Origin: Nanobdellota archaeon
Lineage (GTDB): Archaea > Nanobdellota > Nanobdellia > Woesearchaeales > UBA583
Reading direction: 5' to 3'
NCBI GenBank assembly: GCA_022565615.1
Contig: JAIUMM010000012.1
Location: 1-43,127 of the forward strand
DNA: 43,127 nt
Part shown: piece by piece, positions 21,274-40,868 of the stretch
Numbering within the stretch: position 1 is the stretch's first letter
Layout: every line of letters begins with the position of its first letter
Translations under genes and position numbers: made by a program
Notes under the pieces: generated by a model
The model's database searches: none
Told to the model about the DNA's origin: nothing
What the model saw: only the letters and a program-made list of their open reading frames with translations

Positions 21274-22656
21274 TTAGCACAGGCCTTCATCTTGAATTGT
21301 CCAGTTCAATTCATTAATAAGTCTGTTATGTGACTCTTGATCTGTAAAACATAAACCTTTTGCACCAATAATAATGTCTTGAAAACCTATTTTAGACCAA
21401 GAACTTAACATTGAGTTATAATTTTCAATACTAATATTTGAATTATCAAACATTCTAGAAGCTCCTCGATAATTAAAGCTTCTTCCCTCACCTTGTAAAC
21501 TCGACAAATCCCAATTACTTAAATCTTGATTAAATGAACTTCTATAAACTATAAAATTATTAATAGGATGTGAAAACATTCCAATCATACTATTAACATT
21601 ACTAACATTCCAATTACTAATATCTTGATTAAAAGAGCTTGCACTTAGAAACATACTTTCCATATTTCTAACGTTACTAACATCCCAATTACTAATGTCT
21701 TGATTAAAATATCTTGCATTTATAAACATACTTTCCATATTTCTAACGTTACTAACATCCCAATTACTTAAATCTTGATTAAAATGTCTTACATTTCTAA
21801 ACATATAACTCATATCTTCAACGTTGCCAACGTTCCAATTACTAATATCTTGATCAAGTTCTTCTAAATAGGAAAACATACTTTGCATATTTTTTACATT
21901 GCTAACATTCCAAGAGTTTAAAGTACTCTTAAATGAATGAGCATTCATAAACATATTTCTCATATTAGTAACATTGCTCACTTCCCAACTATTGATATCA
22001 CCATTAAAAGAAGAAGCACTTCTAAACATACTCTCCATGTTTTTCACATTACTCACATCCCAATTACTAATGTTCTGATTAAATGTATTAGCGTAACTAA
22101 ACATACTTTGCATTACAGTAACATTGCTCACATCCCAATTACTAATGTCCTGATTAAAAGAGCTTGCACTAAAAAACATACTCCTCATATTTTTTACATT
22201 TTTTACATCCCAATGACCAATATCAGTATTAAAGTTATTAGCTCCATTAAAAATAAAAGCCATAGTTGTGACATTTCTTGTATCCCAATATCCAATTTCT
22301 GAATTAAAGTTTGAATTTTGAAATAAAGAACTCATATCAGTTATTTGTCCTGTAAATATATTATGAATTGAATCTGAAAATGTGAAGTTAATTCCATATG
22401 CTTCTATTTGTCTATCAACTCCATAATTAATTTCAGTAGCATTTAATAACATTTTTTTATCGACAATTAACATTCCTTTACATATTCCTCTTTCTCCTAT
22501 AGTTCCAATATTTTCTAAATTAAAGCATTCATCATTATCTTCAATTAGGGTAAATTCATTACTATCTTCCTTAACTTCATTAGAGCATCCAGAAAGTATA
22601 ATTAATAACGATAATCCAATTAAATAAAAAAAATTATTTTTTTTCAATAAATCCAT
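21274..22656 (-). CDS. BspA-like surface lipoprotein with DUF285 repeats
   Basis: 460 aa from the ATG at 22656, picked because a TATA box (22681-22690) lies 25-34 bases upstream; the ATG at 22674 is too near. A lipobox (IILSGC) makes it a lipid-anchored surface protein. From about residue 100 to 370 there are about ten copies of a 25-residue repeat of the form FNQDISNWDVSNVxNMxxMF, the DUF285/BspA type known from mycoplasmas and some bacteria. It probably displays a stacked beta/helix surface for binding (inference). The repeats are also near-identical at DNA level (about 75-nt units), which allows copy number change by slippage or recombination. Confidence 0.9.
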   Translation of the reverse strand: MDLLKKNNFFYLIGLSLLIILSGCSNEVKEDSNEFTLIEDNDECFNLENIGTIGERGICKGMLIVDKKMLLNATEINYGVDRQIEAYGINFTFSDSIHNIFTGQITDMSSLFQNSNFNSEIGYWDTRNVTTMAFIFNGANNFNTDIGHWDVKNVKNMRSMFFSASSFNQDISNWDVSNVTVMQSMFSYANTFNQNISNWDVSNVKNMESMFRSASSFNGDINSWEVSNVTNMRNMFMNAHSFKSTLNSWNVSNVKNMQSMFSYLEELDQDISNWNVGNVEDMSYMFRNVRHFNQDLSNWDVSNVRNMESMFINARYFNQDISNWDVSNVRNMESMFLSASSFNQDISNWNVSNVNSMIGMFSHPINNFIVYRSSFNQDLSNWDLSSLQGEGRSFNYRGASRMFDNSNISIENYNSMLSSWSKIGFQDIIIGAKGLCFTDQESHNRLINELNWTIQDEGLC

Positions 22657-22680
22657 AATATTTACATTGAACACTTTGAG

Positions 22681-22813: not shown

Positions 22814-23674
22814 ATGAGTTCAATTTCAAAAAGTATTAATCCTCTTATTATATCTCAAAATAAAGAATTAATAACAGAATTAAAACTAAGAGGATTTTCT
22901 AAACATACTCAAAAAATGTATTCACTATATTTTAAGCAGTTTTTAGAATTTTGTGAAGAAGAAGGAACTCAAATAAATTCTATCTCACAAGAAGATGTTA
23001 AACTTTATTTAGCTCATAAATTAGAGCAAGGTATTAATCCAAGAACCATTGGTTTAATTAAAGCAGCTCTTCTTTTCTATTTCAATGAACTTAAAAAATT
23101 AAATTTTGAAATTAAAACACCAAAATTTCAACGAAAAACTCCTCAAGTTCTTACAAAAGAAGAACTCAGAGAACTATTTTCAAAAATTACAAATACTAAA
23201 CATAAACTTATGCTCCAACTGTATTACGCAGCTGGACTTAGACTTAGTGAAGTAATTAATTTAAAGATGAAAGATATCGGATTTAATGATAAAACAATAT
23301 GGGTTCGTGATGGTAAAGGAGGAAAAGATAGAATGAGTATTTTACCTCAATTTTTAATTGATGAACTCAAAGAATTTTGTGAAAAAAATACATTAGATAA
23401 AAATAACTTTATTTTTACCAATATTAAAGGAGATCCATACTCTTCAAGAATGGTTCAAAAAATTCTAGAGAGAGTTAAAGATAAAGTTTCATTTAACAAA
23501 GATATTCATATTCACACACTCAGACACTCATTTGCAACACATTTACTTGAAGATGGAGTAGATATTAGAATAATTCAAGAATTACTAGGACACAGCGATT
23601 TATCAACAACACAAATTTATACTAAAATTGCAAATGAACAGTTGAAAAAAATTAAAAGTCCTCTGGAGGATTAA
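22814..23674 (+). CDS. xerA: Tyrosine recombinase XerA
   Basis: 286 aa. A SAM-like N-terminal domain (RGFSKHTQKMYSLYFKQF, 26-43) is followed by the catalytic domain with all six residues: R143 (AGLRLSEV), K168 (DGKGGKDR), H234 and R237 (HTLRHSFATHL), H260 (LLGHSDL) and nucleophile Y269 (TTQIYT). XerA resolves chromosome dimers at a dif site in archaea. I could not identify a dif sequence nearby. It is a chromosomal-type recombinase; no att sites or phage genes accompany it. The ferredoxin gene follows after 14 bases, with GGAGG in the last codons of xerA. Confidence 0.9.
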   Translation: MSSISKSINPLIISQNKELITELKLRGFSKHTQKMYSLYFKQFLEFCEEEGTQINSISQEDVKLYLAHKLEQGINPRTIGLIKAALLFYFNELKKLNFEIKTPKFQRKTPQVLTKEELRELFSKITNTKHKLMLQLYYAAGLRLSEVINLKMKDIGFNDKTIWVRDGKGGKDRMSILPQFLIDELKEFCEKNTLDKNNFIFTNIKGDPYSSRMVQKILERVKDKVSFNKDIHIHTLRHSFATHLLEDGVDIRIIQELLGHSDLSTTQIYTKIANEQLKKIKSPLED

Positions 23675-24731: not shown

Positions 24732-25967
24732 CTAAAATCTTATAATCTCCTCTTCTTCACTAATTTCTGAAATAACTTGTGTTGCATAACTTCCTGTTTG
24801 TAAATCAAATGATATTTTTAATGTATTTGAGTCTATTTCCTCACAAGTATAATTTTTAACAATAGAAAATATCTCCTTTTCAATTGCAAAGAGTTGTAAT
24901 TCAGGCATATGTTTTAATTGCAAATCTTCAACTTTTAAGTCTAACTCTTTGAGTAATTCAATGTTTTTTTCAAATCCAATTGAAGAACTATCCATATCAA
25001 ATCCCACTAAACTAATTTTTTCAATACTTTTAATATTTTCATCACCTTTTAAATTTAAATTTAAATTATTTAATCTATCTTTTATATGTAAAAGATGTTT
25101 ATTAAATATTGCACTTTGAAATGCATGTATATATAATGTTCTAAGTTTTTTTGGAAGAGTCCTAAAAGCTCCACTAACATCTTTAGGAGTATTAATCAAA
25201 TGATTTATTATTGATAGGTATCCTCTTAAAAATTGTGGTAATACTTCTTTAACTTCTGGATATTTTATCTTTAATTCTTCTTGTGAGAGTTCTTCAAAAT
25301 TTGTTTTAATTTCTTCTATTAAAGTGATGTAAGAATTAATTTTTACTATCTCCTCTTCATCATCAATATTTTGTGGAAGAGAGAGTAATATTTCAAATAA
25401 AGCATTTTTAATTTGATTTTTAATCAGTAATAAACCTATTTTGTGTGTATTTTTACAAATACCAAATCTTTGAGTTTGAAAAAAATTAAAAACTTTAAAT
25501 TCATTTTCTGTTTCATTTTCAGTTTCATTCTCCTTTTCCTTTTCTTTTTTCATAAACTTCTCTTTTTCTTCTTCACTTACTTCTTCTAAAATAATTTCAA
25601 ATCTATTTCCCAAATTATTACTTAGATTTAATCTATTATTGAATTGACCAACATGTTCAAGTTTCATATCTTCACTTTGAGAATTTAAAAGTTCTACAAA
25701 TTCAAAAGCTTTTTGTTCACTACAATTCTGAATTGAAATTAATTGTGTTGTAATTGCAACTTTATCTTTAGTTCCACAAAAATGAATTCTCTTTGAATTA
25801 ATACTTAATTTTTGAGCAAGAAATACAATAGCTTTTTGACCTGATAAATTAATTTTTGTAAATAAGAAATATGCATAATTTCCACCTACTCCTTTTTCTT
25901 CTTGTAATTGTTTTAAATCATATAACTCATCAACTCTAAAATGAGAAGGTTCTCTTTTAATTATCAT
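24732..25967 (-). CDS. truD: tRNA pseudouridine(13) synthase TruD
   Basis: 411 aa. The TruD catalytic motif HFCGTKDKVAITTQ (D68 is the nucleophile) and the second motif FNFFQTQRFG are both present, as is the N-terminal IKREPSHFRVDEL. TruD makes pseudouridine at position 13 of tRNA. A low-complexity Glu/Lys/Asn insert (about 135-157, repeats of ETEN) interrupts the region before the QRFG motif. The C-terminal part contains the TRUD insertion domain. The gene is convergent with the truncated helicase. Confidence 0.93.
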   Translation of the reverse strand: MIIKREPSHFRVDELYDLKQLQEEKGVGGNYAYFLFTKINLSGQKAIVFLAQKLSINSKRIHFCGTKDKVAITTQLISIQNCSEQKAFEFVELLNSQSEDMKLEHVGQFNNRLNLSNNLGNRFEIILEEVSEEEKEKFMKKEKEKENETENETENEFKVFNFFQTQRFGICKNTHKIGLLLIKNQIKNALFEILLSLPQNIDDEEEIVKINSYITLIEEIKTNFEELSQEELKIKYPEVKEVLPQFLRGYLSIINHLINTPKDVSGAFRTLPKKLRTLYIHAFQSAIFNKHLLHIKDRLNNLNLNLKGDENIKSIEKISLVGFDMDSSSIGFEKNIELLKELDLKVEDLQLKHMPELQLFAIEKEIFSIVKNYTCEEIDSNTLKISFDLQTGSYATQVISEISEEEEIIRF

Positions 25968-35968: not shown

Positions 35969-36619
35969 TTATTTATAATTTGCAACTGAGAAAAAAGAAT
36001 CAAAACTATAACCCTTCTCACTTAAAAACATCTCTAAAGCATCTTGATGAGGTGCATATTCTGCACTCATTACTACATCTAAGCCTCTTGAATTTGGAAT
36101 AGAAAATGATTGAGTTAAAGGCAAATCAAATGTTTTTCTTCTATTTCTTTGTTTTAAAAATTGATCATTTTGAGATGAATTATAAGTACTAAGATTAACT
36201 ACATTCTCTAAATTAGAAGGAGATTGAAGTTGAGATTTATCAAGTTCTTTTCTAAAATTTCTTCTACTATTAATTTGGGTATTTCTATGAGGGTTTAAAC
36301 AATAATCTTTAACATCTTCAACATCGTGCATTACAAAACCTAAGATATTATCCATTTGCATAACATCAACAAATCTTTTTGATAAAATAATTCCTAAAAT
36401 AGGATGTTTTGGTCTATGTGATGCTTTTTCAAATCCACTTAGAGTTGTAATATATATAAAATCCCTAAATTGTGGTTGAAGAGAGATTTTTGAAATATTA
36501 AATGAATCTTCTTCCACATAATCAATGTTTTCCCACAATCCTCCATTCTCTGTTTTTAAACTAATTGAACGTTGATGCTCATGAGGTAAAAAATAAAGTT
36601 TTGAAGTAATTTGTGACAT
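35969..36619 (-). CDS. Paralog A of an unknown three-member family
   Basis: 216 aa, cytosolic, no known family. It shares a layout with the products at 36658-37350 and 39787-40410: a central FRDFIYITTLSGFEKASHR, HPILGIILS, then FVMHDVEDVKDY, and at the end ALEMFLSEKGYSFDSFFSVANY. The centre between these motifs varies in length; here a Gln/Asn/Arg-rich stretch (118-165) sits there. Function unknown. It converges on the primase gene with 4 bases between them. A TATA-like TATTTAAAT lies about 28 bases before the ATG. Confidence 0.65.
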   Translation of the reverse strand: MSQITSKLYFLPHEHQRSISLKTENGGLWENIDYVEEDSFNISKISLQPQFRDFIYITTLSGFEKASHRPKHPILGIILSKRFVDVMQMDNILGFVMHDVEDVKDYCLNPHRNTQINSRRNFRKELDKSQLQSPSNLENVVNLSTYNSSQNDQFLKQRNRRKTFDLPLTQSFSIPNSRGLDVVMSAEYAPHQDALEMFLSEKGYSFDSFFSVANYK

Positions 36620-36657: not shown

Positions 36658-37350
36658 TTATTTGCCTCTTAAGTATTCATCCATTGTCAAATTTCCAAAA
36701 AATCTATGGGGTGGCTCATCTAACATTCCTCTTTTGTGATATTTTGAGTCATTAGCATACATAAAAAAATCAGGATTATATCCAATTTCTCGTGACAAAT
36801 AATGACCTACTTCTTGAAAATTCAATCTCTTATCACCCATAGGAATAATTAGACCCATCTTATTACCAGAATAAAATGTTTGATATGAATTAAAATCTAA
36901 GTCTTTTAATCTATTTCCAATAGAAATTGGACTAAATGAATCAATTTCTTCAAGTAATTCACTTGCTAACTCTTGAGGATTTTCCAGTTTTTTTGCTTTA
37001 CCATTTTCGTCTAACCATAAATCATAGTCATCCACATCTTCTTCTGAATGAAGAACTACTGCTTGCAAAGGAATATGCTCATCAAAGTCAATAATTCTTC
37101 TCTCAATTCCTCCATAGTTATCTGGAACTATTAATCCAAATGTAGGATTGGTGAATTTTTGGAACTTACTTAAAAATCCGTTAGGAGTTGTAAGATAAAC
37201 AGATTCTCTAAATGGTTCAATTAGATACGTATCATCAACAGAACTTCCTCCTACAATTCCTCTTCTCCCTTCTTTACAACATAATGTGTTCAAATAAATT
37301 GGAGCAATTATAGGATTTTTAACTCCAAGAGATACTATTTTTTCACTCAT
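36658..37350 (-). CDS. Paralog B of an unknown three-member family
   Basis: 230 aa, cytosolic, no known family. Shared motifs: FRESVYLTTPNGFLSKFQK, NPTFGLIVP, AVVLHSEEDVDDYDLW, and the end NFQEVGHYLSREIGYNPDFFMY. It has a longer C-terminal tail than paralogs A and C. Its own TATA box (TTTATAAAT, about 24 bases before the ATG) suggests that it is expressed on its own and not only by read-through. It lies directly downstream of the PGK-PfkB fusion. Confidence 0.65.
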   Translation of the reverse strand: MSEKIVSLGVKNPIIAPIYLNTLCCKEGRRGIVGGSSVDDTYLIEPFRESVYLTTPNGFLSKFQKFTNPTFGLIVPDNYGGIERRIIDFDEHIPLQAVVLHSEEDVDDYDLWLDENGKAKKLENPQELASELLEEIDSFSPISIGNRLKDLDFNSYQTFYSGNKMGLIIPMGDKRLNFQEVGHYLSREIGYNPDFFMYANDSKYHKRGMLDEPPHRFFGNLTMDEYLRGK

Positions 37351-37404: not shown

Positions 37405-39723
37405 TTACGCTCTTTTTATCTTAGTGAGTTCATTAAATGTTAATAATCCATTTTGTGTTCCATTTTTAGTAATTAACGCTGATGCATTCCATGACGCATA
37501 TTGAAGAGCTGCTTTAATTCCATATCTTTTAGCATAAAAATAAAAAAATGTACCTGCAAAACAATCTCCAGCCCCTGTGGTATCAACAACTGCTCTTGGC
37601 TCTTTTGATTTTTGATAATATTCTTCTTCACCATTATATGCATATGAACCATTAGAACCATCTGTTATTACAATTAATTTTGCTCCTTTTGAATACATAC
37701 TTCTCAAACAAGATGAGATATCTCTATCGCCTGTGAGTTCTTTTGCCTCATCAAAATTAAAAATAATTATATCACACAAAGAAATTAATTTATCTAAATT
37801 TCTCTTCTCCTCTTTAATTAAATACATTGAAGGATTATAACAAATTAGTGCATTTTTATTAGTTCGCTTCAATTTTCTTGCAAATTTAATTTGAGTTTGC
37901 ATAGACTTTCCATTTAAAGCTGTAAAATAAAAATTATTACTTGAAATAATTGAATTATCAAAATCTTCAAACTCTAAAAAATCATTTTGTCCTCTAAATG
38001 TAAAAATGACTCTATCACCATCTTTTGTTTGCATTAAAATAGATTTAGCAACTTGTTTTTTAGTCTCTTTTGAAGGAATTAAGCCAATTTTATTATTTTT
38101 TAACGTTTTTTCTAAAATTTCTTTAAACTCATTTGAAATTTTTCCCAAATATCCTACTTTTGAGTGTAATTTAGTAAGAGCAATTGATACATTTACTCCA
38201 CCTCCTCCATTTGAAATTTTAAACCCCTCTTTAATCTTAATCTTCTCACCCATCTCAATTTGAGAAAATTTTTCAGGTACATCTACTTTAATATCAAGTG
38301 TATTTGAACCCAAAGATACAAAATCATAATATTTTTTTTGAGATTTAACATCAACATCTACATTATCATCACTTTTACTACTTCGAGTTATATTTTTATA
38401 ATTTAGTTTTAATAATTCAAATCCTTCAATCTTTTTCTTTTGAATAATATGAAATATAACATTTCCTCCAAAAGATACATAATTAAATTTCTTTAAAATA
38501 TTAAACATTTTAGCAGCTGCAATTGTATGCCCACCTAATAAAAATTTTTGCTTTTTTAATTTTGAAATTATTTGAAGTAATTCTTTTGAACCTTTCTCAA
38601 ACTCTTTTAATTCAAATCTCCCCATTACTCCTTTTACTACAATAACTTTACTTTTAATTAAATAATTTTCAAATTCATTAATTGTTTTCATTCCAATATC
38701 AGAAATTTCCTCTTTTAATACCAATTCTTGAAACTCTTCATTTTCTTTTAAATCTTCAATAGAAATTTCAACACGCTTATCCTTACTAGAATATACACAA
38801 ACATCTTTAGGAATTACAAATTTAGATTCATACTTTCCAAATAAAGTTCTAAATAGTTTAATATCATTTCCATCTAAATTAGAATTATATATGTCAATTT
38901 TGCCCAATAAATCATCATTATTTTCTTCAATATTACTAAAATATTGAGATTTTTTACCTAATGGAACTCCTTTAATATAAAGTGCTAGTTCTCCAATTAA
39001 ACCTGCTAATAGTATTTTTTGAACTAAATTCTCCTCCAATAGATAAGAAATATGTTCAATTTGCTCTTTTAATTTAACTCCTCCAAACACATATACAACT
39101 TGATTTTTTTGGTTTTTATTACTTAAATTACTTAATGAATTACTAGATGATGTATTAGTTGAATTAAATAAAAACTTCAATTTTTCTAAATGAAGAATTT
39201 CTCGCTCAAGTGACCTTCCAACAATAATTGGAATTTGAATCTTCTCAAGTAAGTCTGTTGAGATAGAAATATCTAATTTATTTGACATTTCACTAAATGA
39301 ATCAATAATATATAGTTGAGCTAATTTAATTGCTTCTACTAATTCTTTTGAATCAAACAAATTAATATTTTCACATAATAATACTTGAGCTGGTTTTAAT
39401 TTTGAAATTTTTGTAGAAAATAAATTTGAAGAAGAAGTTTGAGAAATTGACTTTGAAAATAAAATTTTAGAACTAATTTCTTGTTCAATAAGTTTTAAAT
39501 GATAATCTTGTAAAGATTTCTTCTCAAAATTATACAAATTTTGTTTAATTAAAATAACTACTTTTGCTTTTTTTTGAACAAGCTCTCTAATTGTCTTACA
39601 GGTTCTTTGAAATTTTTCACTATATGAAACTCTTCCATTTACAAGTAAAGAATCTAAATCAACTCTTAAAAATACTACTTTATTTGTTACATCAAAATTA
39701 TCAAGTGTAAAATATTCAAACAT
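37405..39723 (-). CDS. Fusion of a degenerate phosphoglycerate kinase and a PfkB sugar kinase
   Basis: 772 aa. Residues 1-440 are phosphoglycerate kinase by order of motifs: VVFLRVDLDS, LLCENINLF, GGVKLKE (215-221), ISDIGMKTI, KGVMGRFELKEFEKGS (364-379), LLGGHT and VSFGGN. The basic residues that bind 3-phosphoglycerate seem lost: LIKQNLY stands for AHQGRP, ENINLF for ENVRF and DSFSEMSNK for the DAF-AHR motif. Residues 441-464 form a polar linker. Residues 465-772 are a PfkB/ribokinase: FVSLGSNTLDI, GGGGVNVSIALTKL and the catalytic VVDTTGAGDCFAGT (D720). One protein thus joins a glycolytic-fold half to an active sugar or nucleoside kinase. No frame break is seen. Confidence 0.88.
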   Translation of the reverse strand: MFEYFTLDNFDVTNKVVFLRVDLDSLLVNGRVSYSEKFQRTCKTIRELVQKKAKVVILIKQNLYNFEKKSLQDYHLKLIEQEISSKILFSKSISQTSSSNLFSTKISKLKPAQVLLCENINLFDSKELVEAIKLAQLYIIDSFSEMSNKLDISISTDLLEKIQIPIIVGRSLEREILHLEKLKFLFNSTNTSSSNSLSNLSNKNQKNQVVYVFGGVKLKEQIEHISYLLEENLVQKILLAGLIGELALYIKGVPLGKKSQYFSNIEENNDDLLGKIDIYNSNLDGNDIKLFRTLFGKYESKFVIPKDVCVYSSKDKRVEISIEDLKENEEFQELVLKEEISDIGMKTINEFENYLIKSKVIVVKGVMGRFELKEFEKGSKELLQIISKLKKQKFLLGGHTIAAAKMFNILKKFNYVSFGGNVIFHIIQKKKIEGFELLKLNYKNITRSSKSDDNVDVDVKSQKKYYDFVSLGSNTLDIKVDVPEKFSQIEMGEKIKIKEGFKISNGGGGVNVSIALTKLHSKVGYLGKISNEFKEILEKTLKNNKIGLIPSKETKKQVAKSILMQTKDGDRVIFTFRGQNDFLEFEDFDNSIISSNNFYFTALNGKSMQTQIKFARKLKRTNKNALICYNPSMYLIKEEKRNLDKLISLCDIIIFNFDEAKELTGDRDISSCLRSMYSKGAKLIVITDGSNGSYAYNGEEEYYQKSKEPRAVVDTTGAGDCFAGTFFYFYAKRYGIKAALQYASWNASALITKNGTQNGLLTFNELTKIKRA

Positions 39724-39786: not shown

Positions 39787-40410
39787 TCAACTAAAAAAAT
39801 AACCTCTTTTAATTCCCATGTCTTCAAGATAATTTGAAAATTCTCTTTGATTTTGAATTGATTTTGCACCAAATACTGCAATTCCTTTATTTATTTGATT
39901 TTTTTGAGGTATAAAAAAAGCACCATCTATAGATGAATACGAATGTTGTATTAATCCTCTATTTCGTAATTCAAAAGTACGTTCAAATTCAGTTCTTTCT
40001 ACTTCATGTAAAATAAAAAATTCAATGGGACTTAAATTCTCAAACGAATTTGAAACAGTTGAAAATAAAAAACCAATTAAAGGTTCTCTACATTTATGAG
40101 AAAATCTTTTAAAATCTCTAATACTTGATATATAGACGTTATCCTCATATAATAACTGAACTGGAGTTTCATAAGGATTTATTTGAGAACAATAATTTAA
40201 CTCTTCGTTTTGAGCAAATAGTCCTACATCATTTATCCATAATCCACTTGTTAAATGCACATCTTTTTGAAGTTGAGTAGAAAGACTAACTAATTTAACT
40301 ACATTATCACCACAGTTCTGATTTTGAGAATTTTCTCTTTTAAGTAAAGGAGAAATTTGAGAAATTTTTTTATGTGTTGAAGAAGAAAAAGGAAGTACAT
40401 TAGAAGACAT
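39787..40410 (-). CDS. Paralog C of an unknown three-member family
   Basis: 207 aa, cytosolic, no known family. A Ser/Gln/Asn-rich N-terminus (1-60) is followed by the shared core: YEDNVYISSIRDFKRFSHK, EPLIGFLFS, FFILHEVERTEF and the end REFSNYLEDMGIKRGYFF. It is the most diverged of the three. It is transcribed in the same direction as the PGK-PfkB fusion, which starts 63 bases after its stop. Confidence 0.62.
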   Translation of the reverse strand: MSSNVLPFSSSTHKKISQISPLLKRENSQNQNCGDNVVKLVSLSTQLQKDVHLTSGLWINDVGLFAQNEELNYCSQINPYETPVQLLYEDNVYISSIRDFKRFSHKCREPLIGFLFSTVSNSFENLSPIEFFILHEVERTEFERTFELRNRGLIQHSYSSIDGAFFIPQKNQINKGIAVFGAKSIQNQREFSNYLEDMGIKRGYFFS

Positions 40411-40511: not shown

Positions 40512-40868
40512 TTATAAATCTCTTGCACCAATAGTTTTTCTACCATTAGCATCTGCTCTTGCAGCTGATTGTGAAACCATTGCAATTACTACTTCATTTA
40601 AAGCTGCTGCAAAATCTCCTGAAACATTTAATTCTTCAACTAATGCTTTAACTTTTGATTTTGAAACTAACATCTCTTGAGCGGAAACATTTCCTACAAA
40701 CACATCTCTTGCTTGAACAGTTTTTCTACCATTAGCCTGAGCTCTAGAAGTTGCTTTAGTAACTTCTTCAACAACTGCTGCGTTTAGTGCTTCTGCAAAG
40801 TCTGAACCAACGTTACATCCGTTAGCAACTTCTTTTAATTTTGATTTTACAATAACCATTTCTGCCAT
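40512..40868 (-). CDS. Tandem histone doublet with short third helices
   Basis: 118 aa made of two similar histone-fold units: residues about 4-55 (VKSKLKEVANG, DFAEALNAAV, RAQANGRKTVQARDV) and 67-118 (VSKSKVKALVEE, DFAAALNEVV, RADANGRKTIGARDL). Each ends at or just after the NGRKT-ARD turn, so the usual third helix is mostly missing, most clearly in the second unit. Two fused folds would form a pseudo-dimer by themselves. This resembles the alpha3-truncated histones found in some bacteria and DPANN archaea and not HMf-type histones. It probably binds DNA and compacts the chromosome. A palindrome lies in its leader. Confidence 0.85.
   Translation of the reverse strand: MAEMVIVKSKLKEVANGCNVGSDFAEALNAAVVEEVTKATSRAQANGRKTVQARDVFVGNVSAQEMLVSKSKVKALVEELNVSGDFAAALNEVVIAMVSQSAARADANGRKTIGARDL

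Follow-up and report, generated by a model that had tools for sequence, protein, structure and literature searches.

A PGK-PfkB fusion with a degenerate phosphoglycerate kinase half beside a canonical fusion copy in a Nanobdellota genome: a candidate archaeal phosphofructokinase

Why would an archaeon keep, in front of an intact PfkB kinase, a phosphoglycerate kinase (PGK) domain that has lost the binding residues for its own substrate, and which reaction could the attached kinase catalyze? This question is raised by a stretch of 43,127 nucleotides from a Nanobdellota archaeon, here called the window, which belongs to contig C12 of the genome bin G000 and encodes a PGK-PfkB fusion protein of 772 aa; another fusion copy is located on contig C21 of the same bin. 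We consider it moderately probable that the window gene is a fusion copy specialised for its PfkB half, carrying a folded, catalytically dead PGK domain, with the C21 copy supplying PGK and with the PfkB half acting as phosphofructokinase (PFK).

The gene runs from position 39723 to 37405 on the minus strand without any internal stop codon. A first-pass annotation, made from the letters of the DNA, had described one 772-aa frame joining a PGK to a PfkB kinase at this place, and Pfam indeed found both domains. PGK was matched at residues 7-428 (E 2e-47, 162 bits, cut-off 27) along profile positions 1-377 of 379, and the two-lobed domain (PF00162) is hence recognisable in full length; its closest solved structure is the phosphoglycerate kinase 2cun. 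PfkB was matched at residues 491-760 (E 1.4e-41, 143 bits, cut-off 25.8). The gene is composed of the following parts:

37405..39723, minus strand: complete gene for the 772-aa fusion of a degenerate PGK and an intact PfkB (frame and Pfam).
38386..39723, minus strand: PGK-like half, residues 1-446, with the 3-phosphoglycerate (3PG) site lost (Pfam and count of invariant columns).
39112..39171, minus strand: Ser/Asn-rich insertion found in the window copy alone, residues 185-204 (alignment).
38332..38385, minus strand: linker, residues 447-464, exceeding that of most relatives in length and devoid of ATG and GTG (alignment).
37408..38331, minus strand: intact PfkB (ribokinase-family) kinase half, residues 465-772 (identity and family-invariant columns).
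37564..37584, minus strand: DTTGAGD, the PfkB active-site motif, residues 714-720 (sequence).

Further insertions restricted to the window copy are found at residues 95-98, 267-277 and 281-286. The PfkB half had been called intact, including its DTTGAGD motif, and this description held: D714-D720 and GGGG506-509 are retained as expected for PF00294, and 92% of the family-invariant PfkB columns are kept, the same share as in the nearest relatives. Between residues 430 and 470 of the frame there is no ATG or GTG codon, the next start being TTG471, and because the PfkB half has no usable start codon of its own it would have to be made within the fusion.

A join of two genes by the assembly does not explain the frame, which lies inside the contig and has colinear full-length counterparts in four other genomes of the genus. 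Moreover, the search for a second, intact PGK in the genome, which the first-pass annotation had proposed, was successful: it is found on C21 (L001, 466-2685, minus strand) and is itself a canonical PGK-PfkB fusion of 739 aa, which keeps AHQGRK, ENLR and DAFSIAHR. In each of the four other genomes (G002, G003, G004 and G005) one PGK was detected, always forming the N-terminal half in a fusion with PfkB that is approximately 708-721 aa long, and Nanoarchaeales archaeon DT_72 (L072), which matches the contig of G003, also encodes a canonical fusion; this match places the host among the DPANN archaea of class Nanoarchaeia. All these proteins share the domain order and a similar length with the window copy but have a complete 3PG site, which the window copy has lost. 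Given the canonical fusions on C21 and in the four genus genomes, the fusion is a genuine one, and degeneration concerns the window copy alone.

Elsewhere in the order and class no PGK-PfkB fusion was found among the genomes searched (sets of 99 and 371, which overlap), where the candidates are separate genes. Fusion-like matches in five more distant genomes (L063-L067) turned out to consist of two neighbouring genes that share a frame but are split by a stop codon; therefore, among the genomes searched, the fusion is limited to the genus. A scan of contigs for PfkB returned mostly unrelated PfkB proteins. We propose that the fusion would have been born in the ancestor of the family, when two neighbouring genes of a GAPDH-PGK-PfkB-FBA-TIM operon were joined.

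The substrate site of the PGK half was examined in an alignment with the five canonical fusions and with stand-alone PGKs of relatives. Three motifs are changed in the window copy:

39529..39549, minus strand: IKQNLYN instead of the canonical AHQGRxG, residues 59-65 (H60K, R63L; alignment, basic patch according to PMC7729029).
39355..39372, minus strand: ENINLF instead of the canonical ENLRFF, residues 118-123 (R121N; alignment).
39277..39303, minus strand: DSFSEMSNK instead of the canonical DAFSVAHR, residues 141-149 (H148N, R149K; alignment).

The replacement of the histidine and arginines of the 3PG site had already been suspected, and the alignment of eight site residues confirms it: D22 alone is kept, N24D and R37K add to the exchanges listed above, all basic residues of the site are replaced, and no substitute at a shifted position is visible. 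The site for 3PG and 1,3BPG has been defined as Asp23, Asn25, His62, Arg65, Arg122 and Arg170 in pig numbering (PMC7729029), and among these contacts only the Asp survives in the window copy. Judged by these residues, the PGK half is placed outside the functional PGKs. It would no longer bind 3-phosphoglycerate and has almost certainly lost its catalytic activity, a reading that we also base on redundancy, because the native fusion on C21 would supply PGK. Another substrate for this half may be considered as a putative alternative.

The statement that the glycine motifs on the nucleotide side are kept could be upheld in part. K217, FE and most of the glycines are retained, whereas KGPxG is altered to KGVMG, GGGH to LGGH and AGGA to GGNV, and P218, P433 and G429 are also lost. 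Altogether, the window PGK keeps about 53-54% of the invariant columns of the canonical fusions, compared to 76-86% in the controls. These remnants bear on the proposal that the PGK half is a regulatory domain, which controls the PfkB kinase by still binding ADP/ATP or an anion, with a lysine-modified basic patch as the binding site. It could draw on the exchange of R37, H60 and R149 to Lys in every case, which partly keeps the charge, on the residues remaining on the nucleotide side, on the published suggestion that the basic patch of PGK is an anion regulatory site (PMC7729029), and on a fold conserved beyond the prediction for drift (see below). Nevertheless, we regard such a regulatory domain as improbable, since GPxG, GGGH and AGGA in the nucleotide lobe are altered; furthermore, Arg to Lys exchanges also occur outside the site (R357K) and take only AGA to AAA in an AT-rich genome, and the whole pattern is known from one genome alone. 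It is very improbable that the dead domain serves as an allosteric sensor, which would perceive an adenine nucleotide or phosphate metabolite in what used to be its PGK site and control the phosphofructokinase on the same chain; if true, this would represent a self-regulated PFK that evolved from a bifunctional glycolytic enzyme.

The two halves of the window protein differ strongly in their evolutionary rates. Compared with the fusions of G003 and G005, the PGK half shows 42% and the PfkB half 72-74% identity, while the fusions of G003 and G005 share 83% and 89% with each other in these halves. The terminal branch of the window copy has a length of 1.53 in the PGK half as against 0.20 in the PfkB half; the PGK half evolved approximately 7 times faster. 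In the codon model, dN/dS of the PGK half is about 3.4 times that of the PfkB half on the branch of the window copy, and 1.3 times on its sister branches; it is this ratio between the halves that we retain, the absolute dN/dS values being unusable because the model hit its bounds owing to saturated synonymous sites.

A fast PGK half next to a slow PfkB half is consistent with plain decay under way, in which the PGK half of an acquired, redundant fusion drifts without any role and the frame stays open only because a stop codon or frameshift would cost the downstream PfkB half. The Ser/Asn-rich insertions in the PGK half and the protection of the frame around a PfkB lacking its own start codon point in the same direction. 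Moreover, stand-alone PfkB proteins of G003 (L038, 919-1845) and G005 (L039, 92-1048) are placed inside the clade of the fusions, modestly supported (94/88), which would mean that their PGK half had been lost completely.

What makes plain decay rather unlikely is the hydrophobic core. Among the columns that changed in the window copy and that all five canonical fusions fill with hydrophobic residues, 55 of 64 (86%) remained hydrophobic, which lies in the range of the active controls (82-97%). In a simple model of a single lineage (one genome with a degenerate copy), with a contact list drawn up when the sequence was already known, neutral codon evolution simulated to an equal identity retained about 58-59% (SD 6) of the hydrophobic columns, no run in 1000 matching the observed value; it kept 40% of the invariant columns versus the observed 54%, which was reached once in 1000 runs; and a two-phase simulation with constraint followed by free drift never combined this core retention with the loss of six of the seven contacts (0/1000 per release point). 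Because the two-phase simulation never gives both features, the analysis favours a PGK domain that lost substrate binding and kept its fold, as support rather than proof. An AlphaFold model of the window protein, built from 2 sequences only, reached a mean pLDDT of 42, which is too low to judge the fold of the PGK half. In our preferred explanation, the dead half would still fold and would be kept as a structural appendage of a kinase without its own start codon. Hence, the part of the earlier suggestion of a regulatory or scaffold domain that fits the kept hydrophobic core is the structural or scaffold role.

With regard to its origin, the PfkB half of the window copy groups with G003/G005 in a large tree (support 100/99). 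A tree joining it with C21 was rejected (p-AU 0.0097), and with it a duplication within the genome as the source of this half. For the PGK half taken by itself, a tree with C21 as its partner was not rejected (p-AU 0.075), as can be expected from its long branch. Other genes of the bin are far more distant from those of G003/G005, with identities of 48-49% for PheS, 48% for Hel308 and 33% for TruD. Since the PfkB half is so much closer to these genomes than the other genes, the simplest reading is that C21 carries the native copy and that the window copy was probably moved horizontally between the lineages of G000 and G003/G005.

The same closeness could also arise if the window contig came from a different organism than C21, the coexistence of two paralogs then being a binning artefact. 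The bin may be mixed, and the presence of two TruD genes in it fits such a view. However, the composition argues against a mixed bin and makes it less likely that the second fusion copy stems from contamination: tetranucleotide frequencies correlate with those of the other contigs at approximately 0.905 in the case of the window halves and at 0.913 in that of C21, as compared with 0.38-0.72 for stretches of G003/G005. In addition, codon use matches between C12 and C21, a DUF285 repeat family is common to both contigs, and the TruD of the window is no closer to G003/G005. We therefore consider a binning artefact very unlikely.

The function of the kinase half has to be deduced mainly from gene context, as all NCBIfam equivalog models matched the window PfkB far below their cut-offs, with ribokinase as the nearest. 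Among members of the same class, the operon order GAPDH-PGK-PfkB-FBA-TIM was found in several families (L040, L041, L042, L063-L067), at some loci with intervening genes and at some with GAPDH or TIM beyond the fetched stretch. PGK and PfkB of these operons are often in the same frame with one stop codon between them. In G017, G065, G093 and G059, PfkB is situated close to FBA, with no PGK in the flanking DNA that was retrieved; its neighbourhood in G015 includes PGK and a GH57 glycosidase, and GH57 is also present in the window. PFK-A was found in none of the 8 genomes searched, RuBisCO (PF00016) gave no match in G000 (92% complete) or in G002-G005, and each genome of the genus has one GAPDH and one FBA. 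Moreover, a PfkB-type PFK is known from Aeropyrum. For these reasons, the PfkB half is most likely a glycolytic 6-phosphofructokinase, which would phosphorylate fructose 6-phosphate, the assignment of the substrate resting on the gene context.

The first-pass annotation had instead suggested a link to the ribose-bisphosphate/RuBisCO III route, which found no backing in these genomes, the homologues being part of a glycolysis operon and often standing beside FBA. According to this alternative, the PfkB half would be a ribose-1-phosphate, ribose or nucleoside kinase that feeds PGK via RuBisCO III. Archaeal PFKs of the PfkB family and ribose-1-phosphate kinases are listed as a single cluster (PMC8551123), the window PfkB has weak matches to ribose-1-phosphate kinase models, and RuBisCO is present in some operon-bearing genomes of the order (G016, G098). 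But RuBisCO is absent from G097, which also has the operon, as well as from the genus genomes searched, and in several families PfkB lies beside FBA whether PGK is there or not, which makes this alternative unlikely.

Dead PGKs and PGK fusions are each known separately, and it is their combination that is new; in the open-access literature searched, we found no description of a PGK-PfkB fusion or of a dead-PGK version beside a canonical one. The PGK-TIM of Thermotoga (PRK13962; PMC7729029) likewise has the C-terminus of PGK joined to another glycolytic enzyme, but the partner is TIM instead of a PfkB kinase and its PGK is active. The kinetoplastid PGKL proteins of Bodo saltans and Trypanosoma brucei are multidomain proteins that lost key catalytic PGK residues and are predicted to be dead, with active isoforms alongside; in B. 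saltans the lost residues are those binding 3PGA, as in the window copy (PMC7729029). However, they are eukaryotic, have other partner domains without a kinase and originated separately. For the kinase half, Ape0012 of Aeropyrum pernix (cited in PMC8551123) is a ribokinase-family 6-phosphofructokinase that serves the archaeal PFK step; it is a stand-alone enzyme with demonstrated activity, and the likeness to the window PfkB concerns family and proposed role.

The proposed PFK function is of wider interest, since published surveys reported PFK to be absent from most DPANN genomes, which have thus repeatedly been described as having an incomplete glycolysis (PMC5994134, PMC8407392, PMC8421398). 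With the operon and the fusion, one particular PfkB protein emerges as a candidate for this missing enzyme. Furthermore, canonical and dead-half fusions in one genome provide a natural case in which a domain loses catalysis, with its fold apparently retained within the fusion.

Some other genes of the bin deserve mention. The TruD gene of the window is located at 24732-25967, and the second one is split over the ends of C18 and C6 (L159 and L160, the latter being the start of C6), with an identity of about 24-30%. The DUF285 (Mycoplasma-type) repeat proteins of the window (21274-22674) and of L045 (44-685) are about 50% identical, and the window protein adjoins a tyrosine recombinase (22814-23674). 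An apparent codon-usage outlier on C21 proved to be an artefact of ORF calling. The fusion itself is flanked by three proteins of 207-230 aa without Pfam match, all on the minus strand (35969-36619, 36658-37350 and 39787-40410), the first of which shows 25-27% identity to each of the other two. Finally, 40512-40868 (minus strand) encodes a protein of 118 aa with two similar histone-like halves, whose match to the archaeal histone family of Pfam is just under the cut-off.
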